Shown here: one piece after another, positions 1,674 to 16,945 of the stretch
How the letters are laid out: every line of letters begins with the position of its first letter
Numbering within the stretch: the first letter of the stretch is position 1
Origin: Flavobacterium turcicum
GTDB lineage: Bacteria; Bacteroidota; Bacteroidia; Flavobacteriales; Flavobacteriaceae
Length of the DNA stretch: 64,000 bases
Direction of reading: 5' to 3'
NCBI RefSeq assembly: GCF_011365745.1
Contig: NZ_JAAOBY010000007.1
Location: 62,001 to 126,000, forward strand
Position numbers and translations under genes: made by a program
The notes under the pieces: generated by a model
Database searches by the model: none
What the model saw: the letters and a program-made list of their open reading frames with translations, nothing else
Told to the model about the DNA's origin: nothing

Positions 1674-3705
1674 TCAATACAATATAGGCCTCGAATTTCT
1701 TTCCAGCTTTACTTTTCATTCCTCTTATAAGAGAAGTTTTGCCAGTATTGACAAGACTTTCTATATCAGTTATGCTTAAATGCACACCACATACATTTCG
1801 GAACTGTACCCAGTTGCAGACCTCATCAGAACATTTAACAATTTTATCTCTAATAATCAGTTGCTGCTTTTTGCATTTAGGACAAACAAGGCTAGGTAGG
1901 TTTTCTTGTACAATAGCCGTTTGCAGCAATTCATTGGTAATAGACGTGGCATAGATTTCCATTTCTTTTTGAAAAACTTCCGCATTACTTTCGTTGTTTT
2001 CAATTTTCTGCAAAGCTAGCTCCCACTCTGCGGTCATTGCTACATCGGCAATTTTCTTGTCTTTGACCAGTTCATAGACTTGCAATCCTTTATCGGTAGG
2101 TAACAGGGATTTATTTCCCCTTTGGATATAGTTACGGCTAAACAGGGTTTCAATAATGGAGGCTCTTGTGGCTGGTGTACCAATACCTACGTTTTGCATT
2201 GCTTTGCGTCCCTCTTCATTTTCAATCTCCTTTCCTGCCGTTTCCATAGCTGATAAAAGTCCGGCCTCAGTATAAAGCACAGGTGGTCTGGTTTTTTTTT
2301 CCAAAACCGAAGCATCTTTGATTTTGAGTTCATCACCTTTTTTCAGTTCGGGTAATTCCTGCACAGGTCCAGTATCATTATCGGAAAAACTGCCTTTGAT
2401 GGAACGCCAACCTGGTTCCAATATCTTGCAGCCTCTTAAGGCAAAATCATAATGCAGCGCCTGTAAAGTAATATCGGTTATCTCTTTTGTACAGGCTTGT
2501 GAAATTGCTTCCAGTAGTCGAAAGGCAATCATATTGTAAACAGCATTTTCCTTGGCCTGTAATGCTGATGGGATTTTGTCCGTAATCAGCAGACCATGAT
2601 GATCGGTAACACGAAGGTCATTTACGATACGTTTATTGAAATGCCCCCATTTCACTTTGGTTACTGCTTGCTTGAAGGCTCCCATATCCTGTAAAGCCCT
2701 TATCAGATTTGGAATCTCTGCCCACATATCTTCAGGAATATATTTACTCCCAGTACGTGGGTAAGTAATAAATTTCTTTTCATACAGGCTTTGGGCAATG
2801 TTCAAGGTTTCTTCAGCCGTCAGATTCAACTTTTTATTGGCTTCTTTTTGCAAGCCAGTCAGATCAAACAGCAAAGGCGGTTGTTCCGTCACGCTTTTGG
2901 TTTCTACAGTGGTAACCGTAACTGTATTGCCATTTCTTTCGATGGACTTTAATATATTTTCCACAAGCTTTTTATCTTGCCATTTGTTTTTGGAAAGGCT
3001 TTTAAAATCTATGAACTCTTTTGTATGGGACACCTGTATTTGCCAGTATTGCTGCACCGAAAAATTTCTATTTTCCAGATAACGTCTGCATATTAAAGCA
3101 AGTGTAGGTGTCTGCACTCTACCAAGTGAATAGATACCATTTCCTACAGCAATACTTAATGCCTGAGAAGCGTTGATGCCCAAAAGCCAATCAGCTCGGC
3201 TCCTGCCCTGCGCTGCCTGATATAATCCGTCAAAATCGCTACCAGGTTTTAAGTTGTCTAAACCCTGCCTGATTGCCTTTTCGGTCAGCGAATTAATCCA
3301 AAGACGATCAAAGGGTTTGTTGCTTTTGAGGTATTCATAGATATAGCGGAATATCAGTTCACCCTCACGCCCGGCATCGGTTGCGACAATTATCTTTTCA
3401 CTACGATCAATGAGATGTTCAATTACATTTAACTGCTTTAACGCTCCTGCATCTGCTGTATAGATTTTCTCTTTTTTGACTTTTCGGACGGTCAATAAAA
3501 AAGGATCGGGAAGTATCGGCAGGGACGATTTCTGAAACCCGGAAATGCCGTAATCTTCCGGCATACCCAATCCTACCAAATGTCCAAAAGCCCACGTAAC
3601 ATAATAGCCGTTGCCCAGTAGGTAGCCATCTTTCTTTTCGGTGGCTCCTAACAGGGCTGCTATTTCACGGGCTACGCTTGGTTTTTCTGCAATCACTACT
3701 TTCAT
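1615..3705 (-). CDS. topB: DNA topoisomerase III (Exc-like, ICE excision operon)
   Basis: This 696-residue type IA topoisomerase relaxes or decatenates single-stranded regions of DNA. Residues 1-10 ([10 protein letters not shown]) start the Toprim domain and ATDAGREGE at 108-116 provides its metal-binding acids. [10 protein letters not shown] lies at 195-204, and the catalytic tyrosine is Tyr315 in FITYPRTGS. The C-terminus has a CPKCKK...CNW cysteine cluster that probably binds zinc. In CTnDOT the equivalent gene, exc, encodes a type IA topoisomerase in the excision operon; the order here (HTH protein, DUF3945 protein, topoisomerase) matches that operon. The last residues after FEFEKSN may be altered, because the 3' end runs straight into the ORF6N remnant. 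Confidence 0.93.
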
Positions 3706-3765
3706 GTGTTTATTTTTACAGTTTTTTATTTGTCACATGGAATGCAAAAGGCATTTCATGACACA

Positions 3766-5220
3766 TTACATTTTACGTCCTTTAGATTTGGCCGGCGCTT
3801 TGTCTGCTTCCTGTTCCTCCATCTGTTCCTTGCTATCGGGACTTTTTTGTCCTGATTTTAAAGGCTCTTTGATATTCTTGGTAGCATCATTGGTTTTGCC
3901 TTCAGAATTGACTGCCGTTTGTGTTTTATGAGCTTCAGTAGGTTTTGCCTCTTCTTTGATTTTGTTCGGGTTTTGAAAAGAAAAATCTGTTTTGTTTGTC
4001 TCTTTGTTGAAAGTGATGTAACCTTTGTATTCTTTACCTTTCTTATCCACCAATCCACTCACATAGACAGTCTGACCGTCTTTGAACTTTTGATATTGCT
4101 CATTATCCAGTTCTTTTCCTCTAAAAGTTTTCGGAGTTTCCTTCGACTGGCTTTGCTCATTGTTTTGCAATTGCTTATTGGTATTATTTCTGTCAAACAA
4201 GAACTCTACAAAACGTTTGTCGGCATTGAATTGTACTTCTGCATCAAACGAAGTCCCTTTTTTGGAAGTCATACCCTCTATATGAAGCGGCTTACCCTCC
4301 ATTAAGGTTTGCTTTTGTACATCATCAAGTTTCACGCCTTTGATCTCATCAGGGATTTTGATTTTGTCTGTTCGCAGAGCAACAAGCTCATTAGTCAGCC
4401 TATCCACGCTGACAATAGAGGGTATGGTCTCATTCGTTTTAGGATTGGTCAGATTGACCACACGCCCCATATTGCCTGTTTTAAGTAGATTTTCTTTATC
4501 TTCTTTAGAGAACTCATGACCGAAAAAAGCAAAATTCAGGATAGGTTCTTTACGGATACCGTGAATGGCAACCACAACCACTCCTTCATCATTTTGTTGC
4601 AGAGACAGCCTTGCATCCATTCGGGTAACGGCAGTGCCTAGATTAAGGCTTACAGGCACAAGCTCATTTGTTTTAAACCCTCTCAATAATGGGTCAAGGA
4701 GGTTCATCTTTTCAAGTTTTTCTTTGTTCAGCCCAAGATTGTTCATTGTTTGCCAATCGATCTGTTCTGGTTTGTAGCGGTATTCGCTTGTTTCTGATGT
4801 TGTCTGTGTTGTTGTCATACTATTTTTATTTTCTTGTTTATTATTGCTTTTATCGGGTTCTGCTTTCACTTCGTGCTGCTTCATCAGCTGTTCCCCTTCG
4901 GGAGTTGGTCTATCCATCTGTTTTTGCATTTCATTTGTCATATCAATAGCGACAGGTTCAGGAACTTTGAAAAAGGAAAAATTAGTTGGGTTCTTTAACT
5001 GGCTGACGAAGTTGGAAAAGAAATTGGAAAAGAAATCACCCTGCTTATCCACACGCATAAACTGATTCTGATTTTTTTTATTAGTATCTACGGTTTCGAG
5101 TTTGCCATTATTATCAATGCCCTTTACAGCCTGAATTTTATTTTTCTCTTTGTCCAGTAACAATAATATCTCTGATAATTGTTCAGGAGACTCATGTATA
5201 TCTAACGTTTGTTTGCTCAT
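3766..5220 (-). CDS. DUF4099/DUF3945 domain protein (CTnDOT orf3-like)
   Basis: This hydrophilic 484-residue protein is rich in Gln, Asn, Lys and Glu. Residues about 160-215 (YKPEQIDWQTMNNLGL, EKLEKMNLL, LLRGFKTNELVP) match the DUF4099 region. The later repeats with a GKEY-GYITFN or GTSFDAEVQFN pattern followed by a hydrophobic FLFD or FSFQ tail match DUF3945. The end is low-complexity and basic (KSKGRKM). It has no signal peptide or membrane segment. It sits between the HTH gene and the topoisomerase gene, the place of orf3 in the CTnDOT excision operon. Its function is not known; a DNA-processing accessory role is only a guess from context. Confidence 0.8.
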   Translation of the reverse strand: MSKQTLDIHESPEQLSEILLLLDKEKNKIQAVKGIDNNGKLETVDTNKKNQNQFMRVDKQGDFFSNFFSNFVSQLKNPTNFSFFKVPEPVAIDMTNEMQKQMDRPTPEGEQLMKQHEVKAEPDKSNNKQENKNSMTTTQTTSETSEYRYKPEQIDWQTMNNLGLNKEKLEKMNLLDPLLRGFKTNELVPVSLNLGTAVTRMDARLSLQQNDEGVVVVAIHGIRKEPILNFAFFGHEFSKEDKENLLKTGNMGRVVNLTNPKTNETIPSIVSVDRLTNELVALRTDKIKIPDEIKGVKLDDVQKQTLMEGKPLHIEGMTSKKGTSFDAEVQFNADKRFVEFLFDRNNTNKQLQNNEQSQSKETPKTFRGKELDNEQYQKFKDGQTVYVSGLVDKKGKEYKGYITFNKETNKTDFSFQNPNKIKEEAKPTEAHKTQTAVNSEGKTNDATKNIKEPLKSGQKSPDSKEQMEEQEADKAPAKSKGRKM

Positions 5221-5303
5221 AATCTGAATATTTTCTATTTCAATATTGAAAGTAAAGAAGCTGCCACTGTTTCTCTTTGATTGGCTTTAATTGACATCAT
5301 TTG

Positions 5304-5618
5304 TCAGCCGTTGACTTTTACTTTGGACATGGGAGCGGTAAAGCTTTCTCTGATGAACTGGTGCACATCTGAGAGCTTATAATAAATTTTTCCACTAATA
5401 GTATAATAGGGTAACTTACCGGAAGAGCGGTAACGCTGCAAGGATCGTGGGCTTATCTTCAGTATTTGTAAAATATCCTGATTGTCCAACAGCTCTTCTC
5501 CATCAATAATCGCATGTTGATTTTTAGTCCCACTTGCCAATTCCATAAGGATGTCAAATCGCTCCATTATTCGCTCCATCCAAGCCATAAATTCTATTCT
5601 GTCGATATTCATAATCAA
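5304..5618 (-). CDS. Helix-turn-helix DNA-binding protein (Xis2d/excisionase-like)
   Basis: This 104-residue protein has a C-terminal winged-helix/MerR-type HTH: LDNQDILQILKISPRSLQRYRSSGKLPYY spans the recognition helix, and YKLSDVHQFI follows it. This architecture is shared by the small HTH proteins (Xis2c/Xis2d) that act as recombination directionality factors in CTnDOT-type ICEs. It is the first gene of the minus-strand run toward the topoisomerase. The 475 bases upstream contain a duplicated 70-bp element and the terminator of the rteC operon, so its promoter must lie in that gap. CTnDOT has two such HTH genes, xis2c and xis2d; only one is found here. Confidence 0.8.
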   Translation of the reverse strand: MIMNIDRIEFMAWMERIMERFDILMELASGTKNQHAIIDGEELLDNQDILQILKISPRSLQRYRSSGKLPYYTISGKIYYKLSDVHQFIRESFTAPMSKVKVNG

Positions 5619-5665
5619 AAATTTAGGTTCAATACGCAGTATGTAGCAATTCTTCCAGATAGAGG

Positions 5666-5735
5666 TACTGTTTAAAATGCTTTTACAAAATTCAGTTGCT
5701 TTTGTTAGATTTTATCCCAATGGCTTTCGTAGTAC
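5666..5735. repeat. 70-bp direct repeat, copy 1 (upstream of the excision-type operon)
   Basis: The element begins TACTGTTTAAAATGC and ends GGCTTTCGTAGTAC. A second copy starts exactly 240 bases further on, at 5906. I count about 9 mismatches over 70 positions by eye. GTACT at the left edge and AGTAC at the right edge are inverted with respect to each other. The copy lies about 50 bases upstream of the HTH gene start, on its promoter side. Confidence 0.8.
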
Positions 5736-5905
5736 TGAAAAACTTTAACATTTAAAATTCTTAAAGCCTTGGTTTTACTGGAAAATAATTCTCCATAAAA
5801 TGATGATTTCTTATTCGATTTAAAATATTCTCTTTTTAGGCTCCAATTATTTGAGTGATCTTGTCATAAAAAATGAGTGCAACCATGATTTCTGTTTTAG
5901 ATTAG

Positions 5906-5975
5906 TACTGTTTAGTATGTTTTTATAAAATTCAGCAGCTTTTATTGGATTTTATCCCCATGGCTTTCGTAGTAC
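5906..5975. repeat. 70-bp direct repeat, copy 2
   Basis: This is the second copy of the element at 5666-5735, with the same length and the same ends (TACTG and GGCTTTCGTAGTAC). It lies between the rteC terminator and copy 1. The 170 bases between the copies hold no convincing gene. The pair may be duplicated regulatory sequence, for example RteC-responsive or promoter DNA, but nothing in the sequence proves this. Confidence 0.8.
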
Positions 5976-6030
5976 GAAAAAAATAAAAACCTTAATTTTT
6001 CTGGTATTGTTCTTTGATTGATTCTGGCAT

Positions 6031-6072
6031 AAAAAAAAGCAGTATATCCTTTTAAATCAGGATTTACTGCTT
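6031..6072 (-). terminator. Intrinsic terminator of the rteC operon
   Basis: On the minus strand the arm AAGCAGTAAATCCT pairs with AGGATATACTGCTT around a short loop, with one internal mismatch, and is followed by a run of eight T. It lies 22 bases after the rteC stop codon and separates rteC from the excision-type operon. Confidence 0.85.
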
Positions 6073-6093
6073 GTGGGCATAGTGGTTAAGGCT

Positions 6094-6927
6094 TTATTCT
6101 TGGTCTTCTCTGTACATTTTTTGCTGTAGGTTTAGCGTTAATTCCTCCAGAAATTTTGTCTTACTGCTTTTACGTGCTTTAATTTCAGTATAGGTTTTAT
6201 AGATGTTATCTAGTTTGATGTTGAAAAAATCTTCAAAGGATGTCGTTATCGTATTAATATCTGCCGCACCATGATTGATTGTTCCATTAGAAAACAAGGC
6301 GTAGATTAATTCTGTCAAAGCTGTTTTTGGCCCTGTCCATACCAATACTTTATGCTTTTTTTCTTCAAAAATATCAGAATCATCCACTTTTAGTCTTTTT
6401 AGTGCTTGTCGGATGTAATGAATAAATCGATACATCGCCTTTACTTTTGCCCAGAGCATGTCTTGCGATGTTGAAAATTCCGGAAATTGGTAATAATCAG
6501 TCATAGGTGTAAAGGGAAAATTATCGCGATGGTTTCGAGTAAAGAATTGATGATCCAGATAACTGTATCCTTGTTCCATATAATGCACAAAATCGGCATT
6601 TCTGTAAAAGAACTTATTAATTTTCCGCAATTCTTTTTGGAGGAATTCGACTTTATAAGTGTTACCCGCTTTTGGCATTCTTAGCTCGCAGGAACGCACT
6701 TCTGTAAAATAGATCAATAAACTCATAGGAACGGGTTTGATATTTTTGAAAAAATCGATCTCCTCCGGAACGGTGTTGAAATCATTTTTATCAACTATCT
6801 CTTTTAAGTTCGTTAATGTTTTATTACACAATACAATTCCATTACAAGCCTTATTTTGCATTGTATCGTTTGCCTCTAAAATTTCATTGCAGACAGCATT
6901 AAATGATTCGATCGCTTTTTCAAACAT
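6094..6927 (-). CDS. rteC: RteC-family transcriptional activator of ICE excision
   Basis: This 277-residue cytoplasmic protein resembles RteC over its length: an N-terminal helical region, LLIYFTEVRSCELRMP near residue 75, a FFYRNADFVHYMEQ segment near 108, and a C-terminal WTGPKTALTELIYAL segment near 200 in the part that forms the winged-helix region in RteC. In CTnDOT, RteC binds upstream of the xis operon and turns on excision. The excision-type operon lies immediately downstream here, behind a terminator. The gene starts 31 bases after the oxoamine synthase stop codon and no promoter is evident between them, so the two are probably one transcript. In CTnDOT rteC is controlled by the RteA/RteB two-component system; no such pair is seen here. 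Confidence 0.88.
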   Translation of the reverse strand: MFEKAIESFNAVCNEILEANDTMQNKACNGIVLCNKTLTNLKEIVDKNDFNTVPEEIDFFKNIKPVPMSLLIYFTEVRSCELRMPKAGNTYKVEFLQKELRKINKFFYRNADFVHYMEQGYSYLDHQFFTRNHRDNFPFTPMTDYYQFPEFSTSQDMLWAKVKAMYRFIHYIRQALKRLKVDDSDIFEEKKHKVLVWTGPKTALTELIYALFSNGTINHGAADINTITTSFEDFFNIKLDNIYKTYTEIKARKSSKTKFLEELTLNLQQKMYREDQE

Positions 6928-6958
6928 CTTTTTAAATATTAGTTGTCAATATCTATCG

Positions 6959-9388
6959 TCATTTTGCAATTGATTTGTAATCATTTTGCAAAGTATTCAT
7001 AAGTTCCATTGCGTAATTATCTCTTGTCTGAACATAGGCTACTTTTGGAATTATCCTAGCTCCTAATTTTCTTTTTTCAAATGAGGCTGACACTCCAAAA
7101 TCTATCTTTTGAAGTTGCAAATCATTAGCTCTTTTTATGGTTTGAAATAACAATTGCCTGTACAGTTGGTATTCTTTCGCCCATTTATAATCCATACCTA
7201 TTAATTCCGGTACATAGGTATGATTGTCATTTTTGTAGCAAAACATAACTCCTACAAATGGATTTTCAGGCTCTACTTTCAGGGCTAATACTATAAATTC
7301 CCAGTTGGGACTTTCATTCATGTTTTCGAAAATTTCTTGGGTGTATCGGAATGTATTGATAGCGCAATTATTGTCTTTTACATTGTTGTAAAGTTGATAT
7401 GCTCTTGATATTTCTGATTTGCTCAATTTATCTTTTATTGCAACATCATAGTACTTCTCATAAGGTTCTATATCTTTATTGAAATGTTTACGGGAACGCA
7501 ACGATAATGTTTTTGTAAACTCTTCGTGTGAATGCCAAACTTGGTTTTCAATTACACAGGATTCCGGCATGTCTATTTTGAAATAACCTTGATCTACTAT
7601 TGTTTTGTTGTAGCTGTTTTCTTTTTCGAAATCTCTTAAAACTAGCATGTCTGCATTTAATTCATTGTATTTTTCTTCCAGCTTATCCAATAATAGTTTC
7701 AATGCTTTTTCTGCAAAAGGATGTTCCTGATTGATATAGCAGTGTTCTCCTTCGGTAAATAGAGAGCCCATACCCAATACTCTTGAGGTCAGGTATAAAG
7801 GATTAGTCTTTCTTATTTCTTCCAAATGGATGGAAACCGATTCAGTAGCCAGCATGTCGTCTTTCCAAAGACCATAGGTAACAAAGGTCATTAATACTAT
7901 GATACCTTTGTTGTCTTTAATGGTATAATAGTAAAAATCCCATTGGTTGGTTGGGTCTGGATGCTGACTAAATGTTTTTTCTAAATAAACCAGTCCATCC
8001 CAATCGAAAATATTTTGTTTTCCCATGTATTGATTCCATTCTGATTTTTCAATATCTTGAATGGTATTTTTTTCTTCGATAAAAAGCTCCTGCTCTTTTA
8101 ATTCTGAAATGTTTTCTGCTTTTTTATTGTCCATTCCAAAAGCCTGTCTGATTTTGATTTCACTATTATTTGTATCTTCCAAAGTTTTAGGAAAATGATA
8201 TTCCATCGCTTCAGCTAAGGCTGTAATATCCTCTAGCTGGTTGTGGCTCGATAATGTTATTCTGATTCCTGTGTTCTTTATTGGAACTGCAGGATAAATT
8301 CCCAAGTTCAGAAAATATCCTTCTTTAAATAGGCTATGCACAAACTTATAAGCTGTTGCAGGCGTACCCATACCCAAAAAGAACACTGGCGAATCATTTT
8401 TTGAAATTATGGGGAGGTTTCCGTTTGATAATAACTGGTTAAAATAATCGATTTTATCAGCTAGGCCTTTTTGTTTCAATTCTATTTCAGGAGATAAATG
8501 AATGTCTGCCGAAGCGATTGCTGCTGCTACAGATGCAGGTTCTAACTGAGCGGAAAAGGTTAATGGTCCGCCAAAATTTTTGATTTTATCTCTTAGTTTC
8601 TGATTCCTGCAAAATACCGTCGCACCACTGGCTCCAAAAGTTTTGCTTAGTGTACTCACCACAATACAATTTTCGGGAAGTTCTTTTATTGCATCAAAAA
8701 TAAAACCAGTTCCATTTTTACCTCGCCAACTCATACCATGAACATCGTCAAAATAGAGATTAAGCTGAGGATATTTTTGAGTTAAAGCCAATAATTCTGG
8801 GATAGGTGCATAATCACCAAACATGGAATATACTCCATCAGCCATATACCAGATTTTATTGCATTTGGTAATTAATTGTTTGATTTTATCTTCTAACATA
8901 TCCAAATTGCTATGTCTGATCATTTCTACTGGAATTCCCCGTAGCTTTAAAAGCTGACACGCATTTTGTACACTCCAATGTACTTGATGATCCATTATTA
9001 CGGCATCTTCATCTCTTAACAATGTCGGAATAACAGCTAAATGTCCTAATGTACTGTTCTTTGTTATAATTGGTGGTATGCCATACATTAATTCTATTTT
9101 TTGCTCTAGTTCACTGTAAAGCGGATGTGAAATATATGACTTAGAAAGTGGGAATTGTGTACCATAATTGTTTATGGCTGCTATTGCAGCCTGTTTCAAC
9201 CGAATGTCTTGTTCGAGTCCCAAGTAGCCAGTTGTACCAAAATGAAACATTTCTTTTCCTTTAATTTTGATTGTTCTACCTGTCAATATTTTGTCTTCAG
9301 CATAGAGATGTAGTACTCCTTCTTTTTTTGCTCCTGATAAAACCTCATCGACTGTGTCTATGAAATTATTGTGCTTAATTTTTGCCAT
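6959..9388 (-). CDS. Fused alpha-oxoamine synthase (PLP enzyme) / GNAT-like acyltransferase
   Basis: This 809-residue protein has two enzyme parts. Residues about 30-420 are a class II alpha-oxoamine synthase of the KBL/BioF/SPT/CqsA superfamily. The PLP lysine is Lys249 in STLSKTFGASG, the DDVHG motif at 214-218 replaces DEAHS, and His137 in DHQVHW is the likely ring-stacking histidine. Such enzymes condense an amino acid with an acyl thioester and release CO2. Residues about 450-809 resemble the GNAT-like acyltransferases found fused to this enzyme in Bacteroidetes. No signal peptide is seen, so it acts in the cytosol. It heads an operon with rteC and is divergent from the DUF7793 and AraC genes. 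The substrates are unknown; a signal molecule or modified lipid precursor are both possible. Confidence 0.85.
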   Translation of the reverse strand: MAKIKHNNFIDTVDEVLSGAKKEGVLHLYAEDKILTGRTIKIKGKEMFHFGTTGYLGLEQDIRLKQAAIAAINNYGTQFPLSKSYISHPLYSELEQKIELMYGIPPIITKNSTLGHLAVIPTLLRDEDAVIMDHQVHWSVQNACQLLKLRGIPVEMIRHSNLDMLEDKIKQLITKCNKIWYMADGVYSMFGDYAPIPELLALTQKYPQLNLYFDDVHGMSWRGKNGTGFIFDAIKELPENCIVVSTLSKTFGASGATVFCRNQKLRDKIKNFGGPLTFSAQLEPASVAAAIASADIHLSPEIELKQKGLADKIDYFNQLLSNGNLPIISKNDSPVFFLGMGTPATAYKFVHSLFKEGYFLNLGIYPAVPIKNTGIRITLSSHNQLEDITALAEAMEYHFPKTLEDTNNSEIKIRQAFGMDNKKAENISELKEQELFIEEKNTIQDIEKSEWNQYMGKQNIFDWDGLVYLEKTFSQHPDPTNQWDFYYYTIKDNKGIIVLMTFVTYGLWKDDMLATESVSIHLEEIRKTNPLYLTSRVLGMGSLFTEGEHCYINQEHPFAEKALKLLLDKLEEKYNELNADMLVLRDFEKENSYNKTIVDQGYFKIDMPESCVIENQVWHSHEEFTKTLSLRSRKHFNKDIEPYEKYYDVAIKDKLSKSEISRAYQLYNNVKDNNCAINTFRYTQEIFENMNESPNWEFIVLALKVEPENPFVGVMFCYKNDNHTYVPELIGMDYKWAKEYQLYRQLLFQTIKRANDLQLQKIDFGVSASFEKRKLGARIIPKVAYVQTRDNYAMELMNTLQNDYKSIAK

Positions 9389-9474
9389 TTTTAAATTGTT
9401 TAGGTTGTTTTAAAAATTAGATATCTAAAATTCATCATAAAAATTGAAAGTTATTTCATCTAATACCTCAATAC

Positions 9475-9552
9475 TCCCAATATAACAAGTCAAAGTCCCG
9501 AATTGACAACTAAAACATCCAAATTGCAACAAATAATCCCAAATTGGCAAGT
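9475..9552. promoter_or_regulatory. Four phased 16-bp direct repeats (probable AraC-type operator)
   Basis: The boxes are 9475 TCCCAATATAACAAGT, 9496 TCCCGAATTGACAACT, 9517 ATCCAAATTGCAACAA and 9537 TCCCAAATTGGCAAGT. Their starts are 21, 21 and 20 bases apart, close to two helical turns, so all would face the same side of the DNA. They lie in the divergent gap between the oxoamine synthase/rteC operon and the DUF7793/AraC operon. A matching box occurs upstream of the gene at 11041. AraC proteins typically bind such direct repeats; the regulator encoded at 10032 is the obvious candidate. Confidence 0.75.
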
Positions 9553-9572
9553 GACTTATTAATAGATGTTTA

Positions 9573-9580
9573 TATTTTTG
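9573..9580 (+). promoter_or_regulatory. Bacteroidetes -7 box (TATTTTTG) for the DUF7793/AraC operon
   Basis: TATTTTTG fits the TAnnTTTG consensus. The last 16-bp box ends 20 bases upstream, so it would abut the -33 region, a usual position for an activator. The coding start at 9610 is 29 bases downstream. Confidence 0.6.
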
Positions 9581-9609
9581 TTAAATTAGAAAAATTAAAT
9601 CCATAAAAC

Positions 9610-9993
9610 ATGATTGCAGCACATGATTTTTATGAGAATGATTTTGCCAGGTTTTGGATCTCTGGGGGCATTCTCTTTTTTGAATACAAACCTAACACTA
9701 CTATTGATTTAAGAGTAGCCCAGTGCGTTGTAACCGATAGAATTCATTTTCAAAACGAATGCACTTATCCTATTTTATGTGATATTAGAGGTGTTGTTGC
9801 TACTGAGAAAGCTGGAAGAGATCATTTAGCACAGTCGGGCTCTATTTTGACGCAAGCAGTAGCACTTATTGTACATGAAAAACTTTCCTTGATTATTAGT
9901 ACTTTTTATGTAGAGATTAGTAAGCCCTCTGTACCTACTCAAATTTTCACGAAAGAAGATGACGCTTTAATTTATCTAAAAGGGTTTGTTTAG
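9610..9993 (+). CDS. DUF7793 (STAS/SpoIIAA-like fold) protein
   Basis: This 127-residue cytoplasmic protein begins MIAAHDFYENDFARFWI and has alternating hydrophobic strands (GGILFFEYKP, YPILCDIRGV) as in the DUF7793/STAS-like family of Bacteroidetes. No membrane segment or enzyme motif is visible. Proteins of this kind are often encoded next to PAS/AraC regulators and may act as partner or sensor proteins. Here it is the first gene of a two-gene operon, 38 bases before the AraC-type regulator, and it follows the phased repeats and a good -7 box. The family assignment is moderately sure; the role is inferred from position. Confidence 0.7.
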   Translation: MIAAHDFYENDFARFWISGGILFFEYKPNTTIDLRVAQCVVTDRIHFQNECTYPILCDIRGVVATEKAGRDHLAQSGSILTQAVALIVHEKLSLIISTFYVEISKPSVPTQIFTKEDDALIYLKGFV

Positions 9994-10031
9994 CGTTTAA
10001 TTTAAGAAAAAAGAATTAAAAGTTGAATCTT

Positions 10032-10952
10032 ATGAATAAAACATACAACGAAGAGCGTATTGTTACAATTCATCAAATGTTATTTGAGATGGCACGTGGC
10101 AATTTCAACACTCGCATTCCTTTAAGTTCAAATGATGAAGAATTGGAAACGATAGTTGTTTTAATTAATATGGTAGCGGAAGAAATGAAGGAGTCGGTTT
10201 TTCAAATTGGTTACATTAATACACATAAGACCTTTCAAGTTACAGCTCGAAGTACATTTGTTTTAGATTTCTCTTTTTTAATCAAGAGCTTTACTCCTGA
10301 AGTTACTTCCTTTTTGGGTCATTCCGAATCTGAGTTGATAAACCTATCTTTGGCGGACATTATTACTACAGTTTCTTTTGAACAACTTCAAGAAGTACTT
10401 GATGCAAATAGTACTTTGCCTATAACTATTACATTAGATTTTACACCTAAAGAACATTTACCTATTTCGATTGCCAGTAACATTGTAAGGTTGGTTAATC
10501 GTTCGGAAATTATAATAAATCTGGTTACTCCTGCACGTCAAGATACTTATAGTCCTTTACTGTATGGGAATGAAAACGAGAAACATAATAAAACTCGAAA
10601 GGCAGATGCATTATTGATTCAAAAACTTTATGATTATATTTTAGCACACCTTGAAGAACCCCTTCCCTCCTTAAAGGTACTTTCTTCTAAATTTGGTACT
10701 AATGAACATAAATTAAAAGATGGTTTTCGCCATTTTTTTAAGACTAGTATTTATCAGTTTTATAATCAAGAGCGACTCAAAAGAGCTTTCTTTATGATTG
10801 AACATACTGGAATACCGTTAAAAAACATTTCTGTCATGAATGGTTTTAATAATTATCCCAATTTCTCAAAATCTTTTAAAAAACAATTTGGTTTTTCTCC
10901 GAACGAATTAAAGCGAAATGAAGTTGATTTTATTTTGGTAGACGAGGATTAA
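10032..10952 (+). CDS. AraC-family regulator with PAS-like sensor domain
   Basis: The ATG at 10032 is preferred over the in-frame TTG three codons earlier, giving 306 residues. The N-terminus (about 1-60: FEMARGNFNTRIPLSS, ELETIVVLINMVAEEM) is HAMP-like or helical. Residues about 75-165 look like a PAS fold (SFTPEVTSFLGHSESELINLSL). The C-terminus (about 195-300) is a double HTH of the AraC type: LSSKFGTNEHKLKDGFRHFF, then GFNNYPNFSKSFKKQFGFSPNELKR. No membrane segment is seen, so it probably binds a soluble ligand or a partner. Boxes that fit AraC binding lie upstream of its own operon and of the gene at 11041, suggesting autoregulation and control of that operon, and possibly of the divergent synthase/rteC operon. 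Confidence 0.85.
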   Translation: MNKTYNEERIVTIHQMLFEMARGNFNTRIPLSSNDEELETIVVLINMVAEEMKESVFQIGYINTHKTFQVTARSTFVLDFSFLIKSFTPEVTSFLGHSESELINLSLADIITTVSFEQLQEVLDANSTLPITITLDFTPKEHLPISIASNIVRLVNRSEIIINLVTPARQDTYSPLLYGNENEKHNKTRKADALLIQKLYDYILAHLEEPLPSLKVLSSKFGTNEHKLKDGFRHFFKTSIYQFYNQERLKRAFFMIEHTGIPLKNISVMNGFNNYPNFSKSFKKQFGFSPNELKRNEVDFILVDED

Positions 10953-10957
10953 ATTTA

Positions 10958-11021
10958 TCCCTTTTAGATATCTCTTACTCCCAAAAAGACAAGTGTTGTT
11001 ATTTTATAATTCAGAATTTTG
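10958..11021 (+). promoter_or_regulatory. Operator boxes and promoter of the MauE-like/DUF6520 operon
   Basis: A box TCCCAAAAAGACAAGT at 10979-10994 closely matches those at 9475-9552. A weaker TCCCTTTTAGATATCT lies exactly 21 bases earlier, at 10958. GAATTTTG at 11014-11021 matches 5 of the 6 fixed positions of the TAnnTTTG box. The spacing from box end to -7 box is 19 bases, against 20 at the other promoter. The gene start is at 11041. Confidence 0.6.
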
Positions 11022-11040
11022 CTTTTAAATATAAAGCAAT

Positions 11041-12519
11041 ATGAAACTGAATATTAAATTACAAAATGTATTTTTAGAAATGGTGTGCTTCCTGTATATC
11101 GTTTTATTTACTTATGCTGCGATCAGTAAACTAATTGATTTTGAAAACTTTCAAACACAATTAGGCCAGTCTCCACTTTTAAGTGCTTATGCTGCTTCTA
11201 TCTCGTTTCTTGTAATTTTTGCGGAATTGGGACTAGTAGTTGCTTTATCTCTGCGAGTAAGTCGAATAAAGGCCCTTTATTTATCAGTGGGCTTAATGAC
11301 TGTTTTTACTACATATATTATTTTGAATTTTAGTTCGTTTATTCCATGCTCTTGTGGTGGAATTTTAGAAAAGTTAGGATGGACTGAACACTTGATTTTC
11401 AACCTTTTTTTCATTTTCATAGGTAGTTGCAGTCTGTTGCTTCATCAATATGATAAAAAAGGGATTATCTCACTGTTATTAATAGTAGTATCAAGTGTGC
11501 TTTTCGTTGTTTTTTTATTTCTATCATCAGAGGATACTATGCAGAAGCAAAATCCATTTATTCGTCGATTTACTCCTAACGTTGTATCAAGAACTCTAAC
11601 AAAAAATTTAAATAATTATGGATTTTACTTTGCCGGCCACTCTAAAGGAAAGATCTATTTAGGAAACACCATTTCTCCATTAACTATCATTGAGTTTAAC
11701 AGCACATTGCAACATAAAAAACAATATTCTATTCAACTTATTCCGGATACTTTACCTTTTAGAGCCGTTAAAACAAAAATTGTGGGTGCTCATTTTTTTC
11801 TTTATGATGGTTCTATTCCTATCATTTATCGGGGTTTAGTTTCAGATTGGAAAGCTACCATTTGGGTTACCAAAAAACCTTACTTTACTACATTACAACC
11901 AATTGATTCTACTCTTTGTGTATTTAGAGGGCAACAATTAGGTACTTACGAAAATATATTGGGTACCATAGCTTTAGATGATTCTTTAAAAATTAGAAAG
12001 CAAAAGCACTTATTGCAAAAACAAATAGACGGTATTTTTGACACGGACGGAACCCTGACTTACAGTGAGGGTTTAAAGAAAATCGTTTACACGTATTTTT
12101 ATCGAAATCAATTTATTGTAGCCGATACAGCTTTACAACTTGTCCATCGCGTTACGACTATTGATACCACTACCAAAGCTAAATTAAAAGTAGTCAGAGT
12201 CAAAAAATCAGGGGATAGTAAACTTGCAGCTCCGCCTTATACTGTTAATTTAAGAAGTGCTGCCTTTGATCAACTTTTGTTTAATCAATCAGGGCTTCGT
12301 GGTCGTTATGAAAGTAAAAAAAATTGGAACTATGCTTCTATAATTGATGTTTATGATATTACGAAAAAAATCTATCTATTCAGTTTCTACATCTACCACG
12401 AAAATAAAATGAAAATGAGTGATTTATTGATAACTGAAAAGGCCTTGTATGCAATAGTAGGACATCAAATTGTAAAATATACTTTTGGAGCCCCAATTTT
12501 AACGCAACTAAAAAAATAA
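11041..12519 (+). CDS. MauE/DoxX-like redox membrane protein with large C-terminal domain
   Basis: This 492-residue protein has a MauE/DoxX-like membrane part with hydrophobic segments near residues 12-30, 48-70, 77-97, 115-135 and 141-162. A CxC pair, Cys103 and Cys105 in IPCSCGG, lies at a membrane edge. MauE-type proteins are thought to support disulfide chemistry in the periplasm. The remaining 320 residues are beta-rich and probably periplasmic, and I recognise no family in them. The gene has its own regulatory boxes shared with the AraC operon and is followed after 89 bases by a small secreted cysteine protein (DUF6520). An oxidase or transport role for that small protein is inferred from this pairing only. 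Confidence 0.75.
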   Translation: MKLNIKLQNVFLEMVCFLYIVLFTYAAISKLIDFENFQTQLGQSPLLSAYAASISFLVIFAELGLVVALSLRVSRIKALYLSVGLMTVFTTYIILNFSSFIPCSCGGILEKLGWTEHLIFNLFFIFIGSCSLLLHQYDKKGIISLLLIVVSSVLFVVFLFLSSEDTMQKQNPFIRRFTPNVVSRTLTKNLNNYGFYFAGHSKGKIYLGNTISPLTIIEFNSTLQHKKQYSIQLIPDTLPFRAVKTKIVGAHFFLYDGSIPIIYRGLVSDWKATIWVTKKPYFTTLQPIDSTLCVFRGQQLGTYENILGTIALDDSLKIRKQKHLLQKQIDGIFDTDGTLTYSEGLKKIVYTYFYRNQFIVADTALQLVHRVTTIDTTTKAKLKVVRVKKSGDSKLAAPPYTVNLRSAAFDQLLFNQSGLRGRYESKKNWNYASIIDVYDITKKIYLFSFYIYHENKMKMSDLLITEKALYAIVGHQIVKYTFGAPILTQLKK

Positions 12520-12608
12520 AATTAAAGATATACTGGCCAGTATCAGGGGTAAGATCGAAAACCTGTAGAAAAGAGTAGATCGAAATAATAATTATTAATT
12601 TTTTTATT

Positions 12609-12887
12609 ATGAAAACAGATTTTTTAAAATTGATGGTGCTTCCAATGGTAGCATTCTCATTGGCTAGTGCTGCTGCTGTAACCACTAGTACGGCTACAGA
12701 AAGCCAAACGGCTACTGCAATTATTAATGGTTATATCCATTCACCACTCCCTTCCAGTTGTAAACTGGTAAACGTAGATTGCGATGTTACTGGAAATGCT
12801 TTTTGTATGAGTGGTTCTTCACAAGTATACGATAAAGATAGTGAAACGAACTGTGCTACGCCGCTTTTTAGAACTGTTAATCCGTAG
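12609..12887 (+). CDS. DUF6520 small secreted protein with four cysteines
   Basis: This 92-residue protein has a signal-peptide-like N-terminus (MKTDFLKLMVLPMVAFSLASA) with a probable cut near residue 22. The mature part carries exactly four cysteines (Cys51, 58, 66 and 82), enough for two disulfide bonds. It resembles the DUF6520 family, which is restricted to Bacteroidetes and has no known function. It follows the MauE-like gene and ends at a strong terminator, so the two form a likely operon. Possible roles are a secreted peptide, a carrier or a redox substrate; none can be chosen from sequence. Confidence 0.7.
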   Translation: MKTDFLKLMVLPMVAFSLASAAAVTTSTATESQTATAIINGYIHSPLPSSCKLVNVDCDVTGNAFCMSGSSQVYDKDSETNCATPLFRTVNP

Positions 12888-12894
12888 ATTAACG

Positions 12895-12931
12895 AATAAG
12901 TGCAGTTTATTCAAACTGCACTTATTTTTTT
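12895..12931. terminator. Terminator between convergent DUF6520 and S9 peptidase genes
   Basis: The arms AATAAGTGCAGTTT and AAACTGCACTTATT form a perfect 14-bp stem with a 4-base loop, followed by a T run on the plus strand. A-rich sequence on the other side gives it some value in both directions. Confidence 0.9.
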
Positions 12932-15512
12932 ATTCCTTTAAATATTGGTCAAACCAATCGGTAATTCGTTTTGTAAGGTCCATTTTATTCTCCTTGATTA
13001 CAATTACATGCTGGTCTTTTGGGTATACTAATAATACATTCTTTTTCTTGGCTCTCCTCAATGCATTATAAAAAAGTAAACTCTGTTCGTAGGGTAAATT
13101 AGTCTCCATTTTACCCACCCAAGACAGTAATGGTGTAGTAACATTATCTGCATAAAGTATTGGTGAATTTTTTAGGTACAACTCTTTGTCTTCATAAATA
13201 GATTTTCCTATTCTCCATTGTTGCGATTCACTTCTCCATAATTCTGGAATATTGAGACTTTTTGAGTTACTAAAATACCAACTTACCATGTCTGAAATTG
13301 CTGCACCCGATACTGCTGCTGCAAAAATATTCGATTTTGTAATGATGTAATTTGTTTCATAACCTCCGAAAGAATGCCCTATTAAGCCAATATGTTTTGA
13401 GTCAATCATTCCTGTTTTTACAACTGCATTGTTTGCAGCAACAACACAATCCAGTGCACTATTTCCGGTTTCTCCTTCATAATATTTCACATCAGGCATT
13501 AGTACAAAATAATTCTGTTGCACAAAATGTTTCACATTAAAACCGGTATCGTTGTATAAAGTCGGAATGCAATATTCGTGCAATGAGTTAGTGATTTGCG
13601 AGTAAACATTGATTATCATCGGATATTTTTTGCCTACTTCATAATTTACCGGATAATATAATAATCCTTGCAGTTTGTCTCCTTTTGAATTCGAAAATGA
13701 AATTAGTTCTACCTTTCCTTGATTGAAATTTTTATCATGGCTATTGCTTTCAAACAGAACTTTATTTACACCATTTTTAAAAGATACAATTCTTGGAGAC
13801 TGATTGTGTGATTGTTCTCGATAGACATAGACTTCATTATTGGCTCTACGCAATTCATCTGATTTTGTATCATTATTTGCTACTGGAATTAAAATATTGG
13901 ATGTCGAAACTAATTTGAATTGTTGTGCTTTGGTGGTTGCATTTCTTGATGAAACGATTAAATCATTATCTGAATTAATTTCAGTAAGAGCCCAACCGTT
14001 GTAATTATCATTTCCTACTTGCTTGATGTTCGAACCATCTACAGTGAAGTAAGTACCGCTTTCTCGTCCGTTTGTAATGCGTTTTAGTTTATTTGCTTTG
14101 ATATTAAATTTAAAAATATCAAACTCATCTTGTACCAAAAGGTATTCTCCATCATCACTCCATCCTTTCATTCCAAAAACATGTGGTCTTGTTATATACT
14201 TTAAATCATTTGAAACCCATTCGGAACCTTTAGGTGGCATAATTGACACTGTAGATTGTGTTTTTATATTGTACAGCCACCAATTTTTATCTTTAAAATA
14301 GCATATGTACGCTCCATTTGGAGAAAAAGACAATAAGTAATTTTCACCAGGTTGCTTTTCTAAAAATAGCTTTTTGGTACCATCAGCCAGATTGTACAAG
14401 AAATAGTCAACCTCACCATAGCGTTTAAAATGAGGTGCATATGCAGTGGGATTGTAAAGTAATGCAACTGATTTACTGCCGTTAACCTGTACAAAAGGGA
14501 GTTCTTTACTTGTAATCGCATTCCAGCGCTTTTCTTCAATAAACCAAACCGATAAAGTGGAGTATCCCTCAAGATTTTCCCTACTTGCTTTTGGATAAAT
14601 CCATAAATCTTCTGTATCCCAAACCTCGACATCTTCTTTTTTTGGTGTTGCCTCTTCTTTGAGTTTCGCGATTCCAAAAAATACTCTTTTACCATCACTT
14701 GAAATTTTGAAAGATTTTTTGGCAACAATTTCATGCTTTTCTGGAAAATTTAAGAATGATTTTGGTTCAAAGGTTTGAATACTGTTATCTTGGGTTTTGT
14801 AGAAGTTCAGTTTTGTGTATTTCCCGTTAATGCCCTCTTCGAGCCAAAAAACACCTTTTCCATATTCTGCTAATATCAGACCAGATAATTTGTTTTGCGT
14901 TGTGTGATATTCTGTTTTTTGGTTTGTCCTAAGATTTATTGTTCCGAAATTACTTTTCCCTTCATGGCTAGTGTGATAAAACAGGATATTGTTAGGCTGA
15001 TCCAATTGGTATTCCGTTACATTTGGAACACGGATGATTTCTTTGTTTTTTATTGTTCTCATGATTAATTGCCCATCATTGGAATAGCTCACAATAATTT
15101 TCCCACTATTTGCAAATTCAAAAGCAGCACTATTCGCTATAACATAACTTTCACTACTTTCTAAGTTGGTTACTATTACTTTATCTCCTTGAAAGGCACC
15201 AAATGCAATTTCACCGCCAAATTTGCCCTGTGTTCCTAGTGGAAAGCTAAATCCAATATTTTTCTGCGTATGTTTTACGAAGAGTGTATCTGAACCATTG
15301 CTGTACTGCATATCAAATGATATCCAGTTTCCCTTTTGGGAAATAGCTCTGTTTTCTAATTTGCCCCACCTTTCATACTCTACTTCAGCAATATTCTTTT
15401 TGGAATGATCCTGCCCGTAAATAGAGCAGGATATTACTATGCAAAATGATAGAATTGTTTTTTTACAAGAATAACTGAAAGCGGTAGTACTATTTTTTTT
15501 AAATAGTTTCAT
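12930..15512 (-). CDS. S9-family serine peptidase (prolyl oligopeptidase type), exported
   Basis: The ATG at 15512 (MKLFKKNS) is preferred over one 15 codons upstream, which lies inside the SusD gene; this gives 860 residues. A hydrophobic signal segment (TILSFCIVISCSIYG) follows the basic start. The middle is beta-propeller-like (repeated SSDGKRVFF, SPNGAYI, DDGEYLLV segments). The C-terminal alpha/beta-hydrolase domain has the nucleophile in GHSFGGYE (Ser about 714) and the catalytic histidine in PKDQHVIV (about 835). It probably cuts oligopeptides in the periplasm or at the surface. The gene starts 4 bases after the SusD stop codon, so it belongs to the SusC/SusD operon, which suggests the imported substrate is peptide-like. 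Confidence 0.85.
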   Translation of the reverse strand: MKLFKKNSTTAFSYSCKKTILSFCIVISCSIYGQDHSKKNIAEVEYERWGKLENRAISQKGNWISFDMQYSNGSDTLFVKHTQKNIGFSFPLGTQGKFGGEIAFGAFQGDKVIVTNLESSESYVIANSAAFEFANSGKIIVSYSNDGQLIMRTIKNKEIIRVPNVTEYQLDQPNNILFYHTSHEGKSNFGTINLRTNQKTEYHTTQNKLSGLILAEYGKGVFWLEEGINGKYTKLNFYKTQDNSIQTFEPKSFLNFPEKHEIVAKKSFKISSDGKRVFFGIAKLKEEATPKKEDVEVWDTEDLWIYPKASRENLEGYSTLSVWFIEEKRWNAITSKELPFVQVNGSKSVALLYNPTAYAPHFKRYGEVDYFLYNLADGTKKLFLEKQPGENYLLSFSPNGAYICYFKDKNWWLYNIKTQSTVSIMPPKGSEWVSNDLKYITRPHVFGMKGWSDDGEYLLVQDEFDIFKFNIKANKLKRITNGRESGTYFTVDGSNIKQVGNDNYNGWALTEINSDNDLIVSSRNATTKAQQFKLVSTSNILIPVANNDTKSDELRRANNEVYVYREQSHNQSPRIVSFKNGVNKVLFESNSHDKNFNQGKVELISFSNSKGDKLQGLLYYPVNYEVGKKYPMIINVYSQITNSLHEYCIPTLYNDTGFNVKHFVQQNYFVLMPDVKYYEGETGNSALDCVVAANNAVVKTGMIDSKHIGLIGHSFGGYETNYIITKSNIFAAAVSGAAISDMVSWYFSNSKSLNIPELWRSESQQWRIGKSIYEDKELYLKNSPILYADNVTTPLLSWVGKMETNLPYEQSLLFYNALRRAKKKNVLLVYPKDQHVIVIKENKMDLTKRITDWFDQYLKE

Positions 15513-15516
15513 AACT

Positions 15517-16926
15517 TTAATAACCTGTGTTTTGTGGTTGTAAATTTGGATTTGCATTCAATTCTAGCTCAGGGATAGGCCACAAAATATCGGAACTGTT
15601 CCAGCCTGGTTTTGAAACAGATAGTACTTCATCGACTGATCCAGTGCGCTTTAAATCAAAAAAGCGATGGCCGTGTTCCGTAAAAAATTCAAATCTTCGT
15701 TGTTTTTGAATTTCAGATAAAATTTCAGTTGCAATAGTTGAGGTAATTATTGGTAAACCAGCGGTCGTTCTTATCTTATTTAAATCCTCTTTTGCGCCTG
15801 TTAAATCGCCTAGTTTTGCTCTTGCCTCGGCTCTAATCAAATATTGTTCTGCTAAGCGCAACACAATAGAATATTCCTGCGAACTTGTAGTTGCGGTGCG
15901 CAGTTTGTATTTATTGGGATGATTCCATGTATTTAGTCCGGTGGTAACTGACTTTGTCCAATTCACTTTGCGTTGGTCGCCTGTTTCAAATGCATTCATA
16001 AAATCGGTACGAAGCGCACAAACTGGTGGCGGTCCTGATACGAAAATAAAAGTTGTACCTTCATTACTGTTTCGTACCGCAGTTGCTGATGCTAATTGCC
16101 AAATAGTAGTTTTACTATTTCTTAGAAAAATCTTGTTTAAATCCGTTTCCCAAGCATAAAGCGGACTATTGATAACAGTAGTTGCTTCATTTGCTGCTTC
16201 TGTATTTTTATTCATGTATAAATATACTCTGGCCAGCATGGCTTTGGCCACCATTTTATTGGGTTTTGCACGATCCGAAGAACTATAATTTTCAGGCAAT
16301 CTTGAACTGGCGCTTTCTAAATCCTTCGCGATTGCTGCATATACTTGATCCGCAGAACTGCGCGTAACTTTTCTATTAATTTCATAATTAGTTCCTGTTA
16401 TATATGGGATGCTACCATAAATTTGTAACAGATAAAAATGCACTAGAGCACGAACAAATAGTGCTTCACCCGACACTCTGTTTTTAACTACAATAGGCAA
16501 CCCAGTCGAATTTTCAACACCTTGAATAACTGAATTTGCGTTATATATTTGACTATAGCTTGAAGTCCAAAGTGACGCCACAGTAGCATTGTCAGCCGTA
16601 AGCGCATTGTTGTAAATAGGTAGGGCAATTGTAGAGTTCGTATAATCTTGTAATTCATCAGCGTACAATCCCATTCTGACAGATGCACCAGTAGGTAACC
16701 CAGATAGGATGCCGCCGTCACGAAGTTGTGCATAGATTTGTGCCATTGCTGCATTTGCTGTCAATTCACTTTCAAACACTGTAGTTCCTGTAAGCTGAGA
16801 ATTAGGCAATGGAACCTCCACAAAATCACTACAGGAACTTGAAGACAGTATCAGTGCCAAAACCAAAAGAATGCGATACACCTGAAATGGCTTTGTTAGT
16901 ACCATTATAAATTGTAAATTTTTCAT
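15517..16926 (-). CDS. RagB/SusD-family surface lipoprotein
   Basis: This 469-residue nutrient-binding lipoprotein has a hydrophobic leader ending in the lipobox-like SSSSCSDF, so the mature protein would start at that cysteine. The SusD fold shows as TPR-like helices (ALVHFYLLQIYGSIPYI, MVAKAMLARVYLYM) and the C-terminal LAEQYLIRAEARAKLGD and FFTEHGHRFFDLKRTG segments, which are classic for the family. It caps the SusC channel in the outer membrane. It starts 19 bases after the SusC stop codon and is coupled to the S9 peptidase. Confidence 0.93.
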   Translation of the reverse strand: MKNLQFIMVLTKPFQVYRILLVLALILSSSSCSDFVEVPLPNSQLTGTTVFESELTANAAMAQIYAQLRDGGILSGLPTGASVRMGLYADELQDYTNSTIALPIYNNALTADNATVASLWTSSYSQIYNANSVIQGVENSTGLPIVVKNRVSGEALFVRALVHFYLLQIYGSIPYITGTNYEINRKVTRSSADQVYAAIAKDLESASSRLPENYSSSDRAKPNKMVAKAMLARVYLYMNKNTEAANEATTVINSPLYAWETDLNKIFLRNSKTTIWQLASATAVRNSNEGTTFIFVSGPPPVCALRTDFMNAFETGDQRKVNWTKSVTTGLNTWNHPNKYKLRTATTSSQEYSIVLRLAEQYLIRAEARAKLGDLTGAKEDLNKIRTTAGLPIITSTIATEILSEIQKQRRFEFFTEHGHRFFDLKRTGSVDEVLSVSKPGWNSSDILWPIPELELNANPNLQPQNTGY

Positions 16927-16945
16927 ATTACTATTTTTTTGAGGA

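Follow-up and report, generated by a model that had tools for sequence, protein, structure and literature searches.

A probable AraC/DUF7793 control point ahead of a fused synthase gene and rteC in an integrative and conjugative element of Flavobacterium turcicum

Introduction

How integrative and conjugative elements (ICEs) of the RteC type in environmental Bacteroidota decide on excision without tetracycline-driven RteA/RteB is the question raised by a locus of Flavobacterium turcicum. The locus is situated in a stretch of 64,000 nucleotides (contig NZ_JAAOBY010000007.1, positions 62,001 to 126,000), termed here the window, in which rteC lies behind the gene of a fused alpha-oxoamine synthase and both diverge from a DUF7793-AraC gene pair. 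Direct repeats occupy the shared promoter. The analysis makes it likely that AraC and DUF7793 constitute a conserved control point ahead of the synthase-rteC operon, hence of excision. A metabolite signal, with a chromosomal parallel in a second clade of synthases, is plausible. A conserved and testable circuit at this position bears directly on the question above; were the synthase product the cue, the mobile element would carry a self-made chemical switch, and the fusion of an oxoamine synthase with a FemX-like protein would be a new kind of signal synthase, whose chromosomal relatives beside kinases could serve for comparison.

Layout of the locus

The genes of the locus, with positions counted from the first letter of the window, are the following.

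1615-3705, minus strand: topoisomerase III gene, part of an excision-type operon at 1615-5618 (profile search)
3766-5220, minus strand: DUF3945 gene (DUF3945/DUF4099), part of the same operon
5304-5618, minus strand: HTH_17 gene, part of the same operon
6094-6927, minus strand: rteC (PF09357, 208 bits)
6959-9388, minus strand: fused synthase, 809 residues (Pfam PF00155 and PF13480)
9610-9993, plus strand: DUF7793 gene (PF25056, 146 bits)
10023-10952, plus strand: AraC regulator (HTH_18; HAMP-like and PAS-like N-terminal part)
11041-12519, plus strand: MauE-type membrane protein (PF07291)

A preliminary description of this DNA had reported rteC, the synthase, DUF7793, AraC, an HTH gene, DUF3945 and a topoisomerase, and all of them are present. 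rteC follows the synthase on the minus strand after a gap of 31 bp. The 3.4-Mb genome contains one RteC gene and one DUF7793 gene, both at the synthase locus.

The element that carries the synthase and rteC is an ICE. The contig runs from mnmE through an adjoining tyrosine integrase, tra genes, relaxase, coupling protein and helicase to DUF1896 and topoisomerase III and onward, and TraG, the relaxase and the coupling protein belong to the same element as the integrase. RteC, the operon of helix-turn-helix (HTH), DUF3945 and topoisomerase genes, the tra/mob genes and the integrase place it among ICEs of the CTnDOT/RteC type. Sigma54_activat, the activator domain of RteB-type proteins, found no match on the ICE contig; RteA was given no separate search.

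Conservation of the synthase neighbourhood

The 29 loci returned by a pattern search of named genomes are mostly from Flavobacterium, the others including one each from Gillisia and Lutibacter. In 27 of the 29, DUF7793 faces the synthase; L018 has it on the other side, and L032 is a partial locus. These named loci (L005-L033) overlap the surveyed genomes and are kept out of the counts that follow. In the genus, 43 of 249 genomes gave a match to the second half of the synthase, at least 128 to RteC and 48 to DUF7793; in the phylum, 8 of 395 genomes (7 belonging to the same genus) have the synthase and 20 have DUF7793.

Surroundings were fetched for 58 loci, namely 53 from the genus search (the window's own excluded) and five further loci with synthase sequence. 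They comprise 37 intact loci of the ICE type (clade A; L100 and L101 from the phylum search, 35 from the genus search), 14 loci of clade B, and 7 that are broken or cut. Outside the 37 stand L122 and L136, cut by contig ends, the broken synthases of L099, L102, L120, L121 and L143, and L083, which retains the synthase start only. The clade-B set includes L119 (split, at a contig end), L097 (731 residues) and L094 (in-frame stop). Synthases of clades A and B are 34-41% identical.

DUF7793, AraC and MauE genes lie upstream of the synthase in all 37 clade-A loci, with DUF7793-AraC divergent from it, and the layout is retained in clade-A synthases down to 51% identity. The preliminary description had proposed to look for the synthase beside rteC in other elements, and it is indeed found there: RteC is located within 1.5 kb of the synthase in 29 of the 37 intact loci, and one clade of RteC accompanies it in 23 of 23 cases among the matches listed. 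The gap between the two genes is at most 60 bp in 21 clade-A loci, of which 20 have an intact rteC and one, L133, a remnant.

With the window RteC as query against the 249 genomes, window included, 23 loci match at 68-100% identity and the next at 42% at most, among the matches listed; a short RteC fragment of high identity may be unlisted, one such (L133) being known. All 23 genes coincide with synthase loci, 20 of them intact, one cut (L136), one frameshifted (L120) and one a start remnant (L083). Other RteC types, 27-36% identical to that of the window, adjoin the synthase in ten intact loci and in the broken L102. One RteC clade is thus strongly bound to the synthase, and the bond is not absolute for the synthase, since synthases also adjoin other RteC types. 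In L085 (392-2730) and L087 (8854-11216), a more distant DUF7793-AraC pair diverges directly from an rteC about 26% identical to that of the window, without a synthase.

Repeats in the shared promoter

The promoter shared by the synthase and DUF7793 contains copies of a motif close to ACTCCCRAWWTGACAAS at steps of 21 bp. The repeats and the putative promoter elements are listed below.

9446-9453, minus strand: TAACTTTC, may be the -7 element for synthase transcription, 20 bp away from repeat 1
9474-9489, plus strand: repeat 1, 17.5 bits
9495-9510, plus strand: repeat 2, 19.8 bits, matching the 14-base consensus TCCCRAWWTGACAA exactly, as no other site in the 3.4-Mb genome does
about 9516-9531, plus strand: degenerate third repeat, below threshold, seen by eye
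9536-9551, plus strand: repeat 4, 20.6 bits, adjoining the DUF7793 promoter
9573-9580, plus strand: TATTTTTG, putative -7 element on the DUF7793 side, fitting TAnnTTTG, 21 bp after the last repeat
10978-10993, plus strand: repeat copy before MauE, 17.6 bits

Of the four phased repeats originally described, three are strong (17.5-20.6 bits), and the one near 9516-9531 is degenerate. A repeat finder detected no direct repeat in the promoter, and a consensus scan of the window alone was not significant (4 matches, 1.8 expected; 15 of 100 shuffles gave as many). The case for the repeats therefore rests on their conservation in relatives. Allowing at most one mismatch, the whole genome contains 14 sites, of which 4, together with the sole exact site, fall inside the 1.5 kb considered here.

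The motif matrix was built from the promoters of L005-L031 (minus L018), with no MauE sites used; at 9 bits, shuffled sequence of 551,280 bases gave 55 matches, a chance rate near one per 10,000 bases. With a threshold of 13 bits, 36 of the 37 clade-A loci have one copy or more in the 400 bp upstream of the synthase and 32 have at least two, counts that are not independent of the matrix because its promoters partly recur in the counted set. The counts before MauE are independent, and there at least one copy occurs within 320 bp in 31 of 37 loci (13 bits). The motif persists across loci while AraC identity drops to 26%. Two motif copies in tandem (16.0 and 23.4 bits) were also noted at L026:17221-17257, some 5 kb past the synthase and before no identified gene.

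TAnnTTTG is the consensus of the Bacteroidetes -7 element. Such a box lies 20-21 bp past the last repeat in 16 of 36 promoters, against 2.7 expected anywhere in the same 45 bp; on the synthase side the signal is weak (7 of 36 promoters against 3.4 expected). This arrangement of repeats and -7 elements is what is expected of an AraC-type activator touching divergent promoters.

Candidate RteC operators

The DNA separating rteC from the HTH gene of the excision operon holds two copies of a 91-nt element.

5665-5755, strand not assigned: copy 1, before the HTH gene, candidate RteC operator
5905-5995, strand not assigned: copy 2, 81% identical to copy 1 and 240 bp away

Related elements, in one or two copies, were found in 18 of the 22 fetched loci with the window RteC type, and not in L150, L155, L156 and L157. 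In the 13 loci with a different RteC type none was found, and these include L127 and L129, whose HTH genes share 90-100% identity with that of the window. Across loci the presence of the elements goes with the RteC type, and they are candidate operators for RteC.

The fused synthase

The synthase is divided into a pyridoxal 5'-phosphate (PLP)-dependent half at about residues 36-396, with Lys249, and a tandem-GNAT, FemX-like half at about residues 435-800. Sequence matches of the PLP half in the Protein Data Bank (PDB) are led by Alb29 (E 1.4e-33), followed by serine palmitoyltransferase and KBL, with CqsA far weaker (5.7e-11). The fold matches too, including serine palmitoyltransferase and cysteate acyltransferase structures; much of the model of this half is weak, and its identity therefore rests on sequence. 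Alignment of 50 sequences from both synthase clades gives 93 invariant columns, among them H137, D214, H217 and K249. With the PLP lysine and the conserved Asp and His residues, the sequence identifies this half as an alpha-oxoamine synthase of PLP fold type I. Membership in the CqsA/LqsA autoinducer-synthase family is ruled out by a score of 72.2 bits against the cut-off of 428 (NF005526).

The second half is modelled mostly at a predicted local distance difference test (pLDDT) score of 74-94. Its best structural matches are FemX (6snr; Z 22.8, root-mean-square deviation 4.4, 303 aligned residues, 12% identity) and Sbb17 (Z 21.8), and other aminoacyl-tRNA-dependent enzymes are also among the top matches. 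A sequence search of the PDB gave a single match at E 1.8. PF13480 is found in 16 of 16 synthase members and PF04339 (FemAB_like) in 4 of 16, with E up to 1 as threshold. The half has the tandem-GNAT Fem fold and models as a FemX-type tandem GNAT, a common fold being no proof of substrate. The fusion of an oxoamine synthase with a GNAT protein, as first described, stands with both Pfam domains; the GNAT half is refined to the FemX type, and a plain acetyltransferase reading was dropped on grounds of fold.

Both halves are under purifying selection. dN/dS, the ratio of nonsynonymous to synonymous substitution rates, is about 0.04 for the PLP half and 0.09-0.11 for the second half in four pairs (dS 0.5-1.6), and is higher, 0.15-0.34, in the two closest pairs, where changes are few. 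Domain content and fold together suggest an N-acylated or N-aminoacylated aminoketone as product: the PLP half would join an amino acid and an acyl thioester into an alpha-aminoketone, which the FemX-like half would then acylate or aminoacylate. Alb29 is reported to form aminoketones from L-glutamate and acyl-CoAs (PMC11906848).

The AraC and DUF7793 proteins

Across relatives, the AraC protein is conserved in its HAMP-like start and its HTH end. Of 19 aligned proteins, searched at E up to 1, 15 match HAMP (best 6e-5) and 11 match PAS_9 (best 5e-6), and no membrane stretch was detected in the AraC protein (KD19 maximum 1.07). The structure model of DUF7793 is of low confidence (pLDDT 56), too poor to carry weight; STAS-domain structures were among its weak matches, none at E 0.001 or better, and DUF7793 is perhaps STAS-like. 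DUF7793 may be read as a cytosolic partner in sensing and regulation.

The clade-B synthases provide a view of a related arrangement outside the ICE setting. DUF7793 lies directly downstream of the synthase in all 14 loci (L091-L098, L114-L119), and RteC is present in none. In 13 of the 14, a relative of one kinase of about 500 residues comes after the synthase and its one to three DUF7793 genes; the kinase is cut at the contig end in L119, is 413 residues long in L097, and is replaced by a PAS-HisKA_3 kinase in L092. In both loci scanned with Pfam (L096 and L118) it is a hybrid HisKA-HATPase-REC kinase. No membrane-like stretch was detected in the first 130 residues of the clade-B kinases (hydropathy maximum 0.6-0.9; 1.53 in the shorter L097). 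The constant presence of DUF7793 and of a cytosolic hybrid-kinase relative in nearly all these loci favours a signalling role, and the set of synthase, DUF7793 and kinase is possibly a stand-alone signalling system. Among more distant DUF7793 genes, those of L103, L104, L110 and L112 have kinase genes as neighbours, some of which include HAMP or PAS parts, and those of L086, L105-L109 and L111 adjoin genes of unrelated appearance. We also note that several clade-B loci adjoin genes resembling rsgA, DTD and DAHP synthase.

Linked cassette and neighbouring sequences

Beyond MauE, the following features were identified.

12609-12887, plus strand: DUF6520 small protein (PF20130)
12930-19939, minus strand: S9-type peptidase, SusD-like and SusC-like genes of a linked cassette (named by inspection)

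The MauE and DUF6520 genes fall inside 5304-12887, the range of the preliminary description, which had left them unnamed and had missed the linked MauE/DUF6520/S9/SusCD cassette. MauE, DUF6520, the S9 peptidase, SusD and SusC (11041-19939) form a cassette linked to the AraC module; a second DUF6520 gene is found elsewhere in the genome, apart from the cassette copy. A large block at 28104-62315 of the window resembles metal-resistance cargo, with CusA/CzcA-like pumps, P-type ATPases and heavy-metal-associated proteins, as judged by eye from the open reading frames.

No Rfam match was obtained within 5200-13200, and a sigma-70 scan stayed at the level of chance (29 against 26). A hairpin noted by eye after rteC (about 6033-6080) is unsupported, because a terminator scan found none.

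Interpretation of the locus

These features can be read as a regulatory module that forms part of the ICEs of one RteC-type family. The cytosolic, HAMP/PAS-like AraC protein, aided by the perhaps STAS-like DUF7793, would bind the 21-bp direct repeats between the divergent promoters and before MauE. It would thereby drive three operons, namely that of DUF7793 and AraC, that of MauE and DUF6520 and that of the synthase and rteC. The excision operon would in turn be the target of RteC, for which the two 91-nt elements ahead of the HTH gene may be the sites of action, and the synthase product would most likely feed back on DUF7793/AraC, so that rteC expression would depend on a self-made metabolite. 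Taken as a whole, this circuit is the account we favour, tentatively and at somewhat under even chances. Besides the conserved linkage and repeats, the kinases near clade-B and some distant DUF7793 genes, the selection on both enzyme halves and the 91-nt elements that go with the RteC type, two arrangements speak for it: DUF7793-AraC opposite rteC in L085 and L087, where there is no synthase, and L083, where a deletion has spared, behind the promoter, the first part of the synthase gene and the whole of rteC.

Several observations weigh against it. Eight clade-A loci have a gap of 74-297 bp between synthase and rteC, where rteC may have its own promoter. Seven show no rteC within 6 kb, a further locus ending at a contig end, and L101, L147 and L148 at least border other ICE genes (DUF1896 or mobilisation genes) in its place. 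The synthase is broken or deleted while DUF7793-AraC is intact in six loci (L083, L099, L102, L120, L121, L143). L133 and its named copy L014 (L014:12481-13660) carry behind the synthase a 32-residue match (75%) to the window RteC type and then a complete RteC of another type, from which it follows that rteC was replaced within the ICE. No motif copy was found in L100, in L085 and L087, which lack the synthase, or in clade B (0 of 14), and genome-wide the motif is no commoner than a reversed control (14 against 12). The AraC/PAS protein of the preliminary description keeps its AraC part (HTH_18) and belongs to a family with HAMP and PAS-like parts, but the PAS match of the window protein itself falls below the cut-off (TIGR00229, 19.9 bits against 22.9).

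Comparison of identities across loci, in correlations that ignore shared ancestry, resolves tight modules of AraC with DUF7793 (r 0.93), of MauE, S9 and SusD (0.89-0.92) and of HTH, DUF3945 and TopB (0.80-0.88). Synthase identity correlates moderately with that of AraC (r 0.66), HTH_17 (0.58) and TopB (0.53), and weakly with that of RteC (r 0.31), which again counts against the circuit, as does AraC identity falling to 41-44% beside synthases of 89-93%: such divergence beside a near-constant synthase is odd for the receptor of a fixed ligand. The interpretation given in the preliminary description is thus borne out in part. The synthase-rteC linkage, the repeats and the clade-B genes beside kinases speak for it; the lack of tight synthase-RteC co-divergence, the loci without rteC and the broken synthases do not.

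The separate identity modules, the broken synthases and the loci lacking rteC or the motif bring a second explanation close behind. The genes from SusC, SusD, S9, DUF6520 and MauE to AraC, DUF7793 and the synthase may together serve uptake or a peptide or lipid trait, controlled by an AraC regulator of their own, with rteC as the first backbone gene alongside, reached possibly by read-through and without selected control of excision. The co-divergence of MauE, S9 and SusD, the repeat before MauE, the loci where the cassette borders DUF1896 or mobilisation genes rather than rteC, the weak synthase-RteC correlation and the exchange of rteC all agree with such cargo. It accounts poorly for an RteC clade that stands behind the synthase or its remnant in every one of its 23 listed matches, for the short gaps in the 20 loci with an intact rteC, and for DUF7793-AraC facing rteC in L085 and L087 even where no synthase is present. 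Cargo is a real possibility, and we rank it second.

Alternatively, the synthase could make an N-acyl aminoketone lipid with a structural role or bioactivity, resembling sphingolipids or sulfonolipids, that alters the envelope, for example in exclusion or competition, with AraC only adjusting the dose. The closeness of the PLP half to serine palmitoyltransferase and cysteate acyltransferase structures and the acyltransferase match (PF13480) in all 16 members point in this direction, and some bacterial ceramide synthases are GNAT-like. The sensor-regulator genes beside both synthase clades, and the second half being best matched in structure by FemX and other aminoacyl-tRNA-dependent enzymes, make a lipid role unlikely. 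We consider quite unlikely a more elaborate form of the circuit, in which a single fused protein is dedicated to making an N-aminoacyl-aminoketone, or the pyrazinone formed from it by ring closure (like 3,5-dimethylpyrazin-2-ol, DPO), the FemX-like half taking the amino acid that it adds from aminoacyl-tRNA. In this form DUF7793, together with the AraC PAS part in ICEs or with hybrid kinases on chromosomes, would be the receptor of a complete quorum or self-sensing circuit setting rteC and excision. That the neighbourhood reflects nothing but recent common descent of one ICE family, as the narrow hosts (8 of 395 phylum genomes, 7 of them in one genus) and the many closely related loci might suggest, is very improbable given a layout kept at 51% synthase identity, a motif conserved across AraC types, and DUF7793 retained in clade B at 34-41%.

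Comparison with known systems

No published description of the synthase-rteC system was found in the literature searched, which left out most subscription journals. The tripartite ICEs of Mesorhizobium are a likely precedent for quorum control of ICE excision, based on N-acyl-homoserine lactones (AHLs), with other synthase chemistry, another regulator and another ICE family.

CTnDOT is similar in that RteC belongs to a conjugative element with tra/mob genes, and the HTH, DUF3945 and topoisomerase genes behind rteC presumably match the CTnDOT excision operon. In CTnDOT, rteC is activated by RteB, and tetracycline is needed for the Rte proteins to be made (PMC1976400). In contrast, no RteB-type sigma-54 activator was found on the contig studied here, and rteC is in line with the synthase under an AraC/DUF7793 divergent promoter. 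The Riemerella element ICERanRCAD0133-1 bears RteC together with AbiEi and TetR regulators, the accessible part of its description listing neither RteA or RteB nor a synthase (PMC6491836). The proposal in the preliminary description that the RteAB input has been replaced agrees with the lack of a Sigma54_activat match and is weakened by this published precedent.

The CqsA/CqsS and LqsA/LqsS quorum-sensing systems combine the alpha-oxoamine synthase fold with a hybrid-type histidine kinase partner (PMC3376566). Clade B resembles them in the same fold beside a kinase of that type. The comparison with CqsA made in the preliminary description thus holds at the level of the superfamily and fails at that of the family: the synthase is fused to a FemX-like half and scores 72 bits against a cut-off of 428, the six-helix membrane kinase partner is not matched by the clade-B kinases, which lack a membrane stretch in their first 130 residues, and DUF7793 intervenes between synthase and kinase in clade B, with AraC taking the place of the kinase in the ICE form.

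VqmA consists of a PAS domain and a LuxR-type HTH. The HTH here is of the AraC type, and PAS_9, matched in 11 of 19 aligned proteins, is below the cut-off in the window protein. The DPO-VqmA system, in which DPO apparently has no dedicated synthase, likewise uses a transcription factor as receptor (PMC12930378), and in DPO-sensing phages the receptor is carried by a mobile element (PMC12802170). By analogy, an aminoketone joined to an amino acid, as in DPO, is the type of product that the alpha-oxoamine synthase and FemX-like halves could make.

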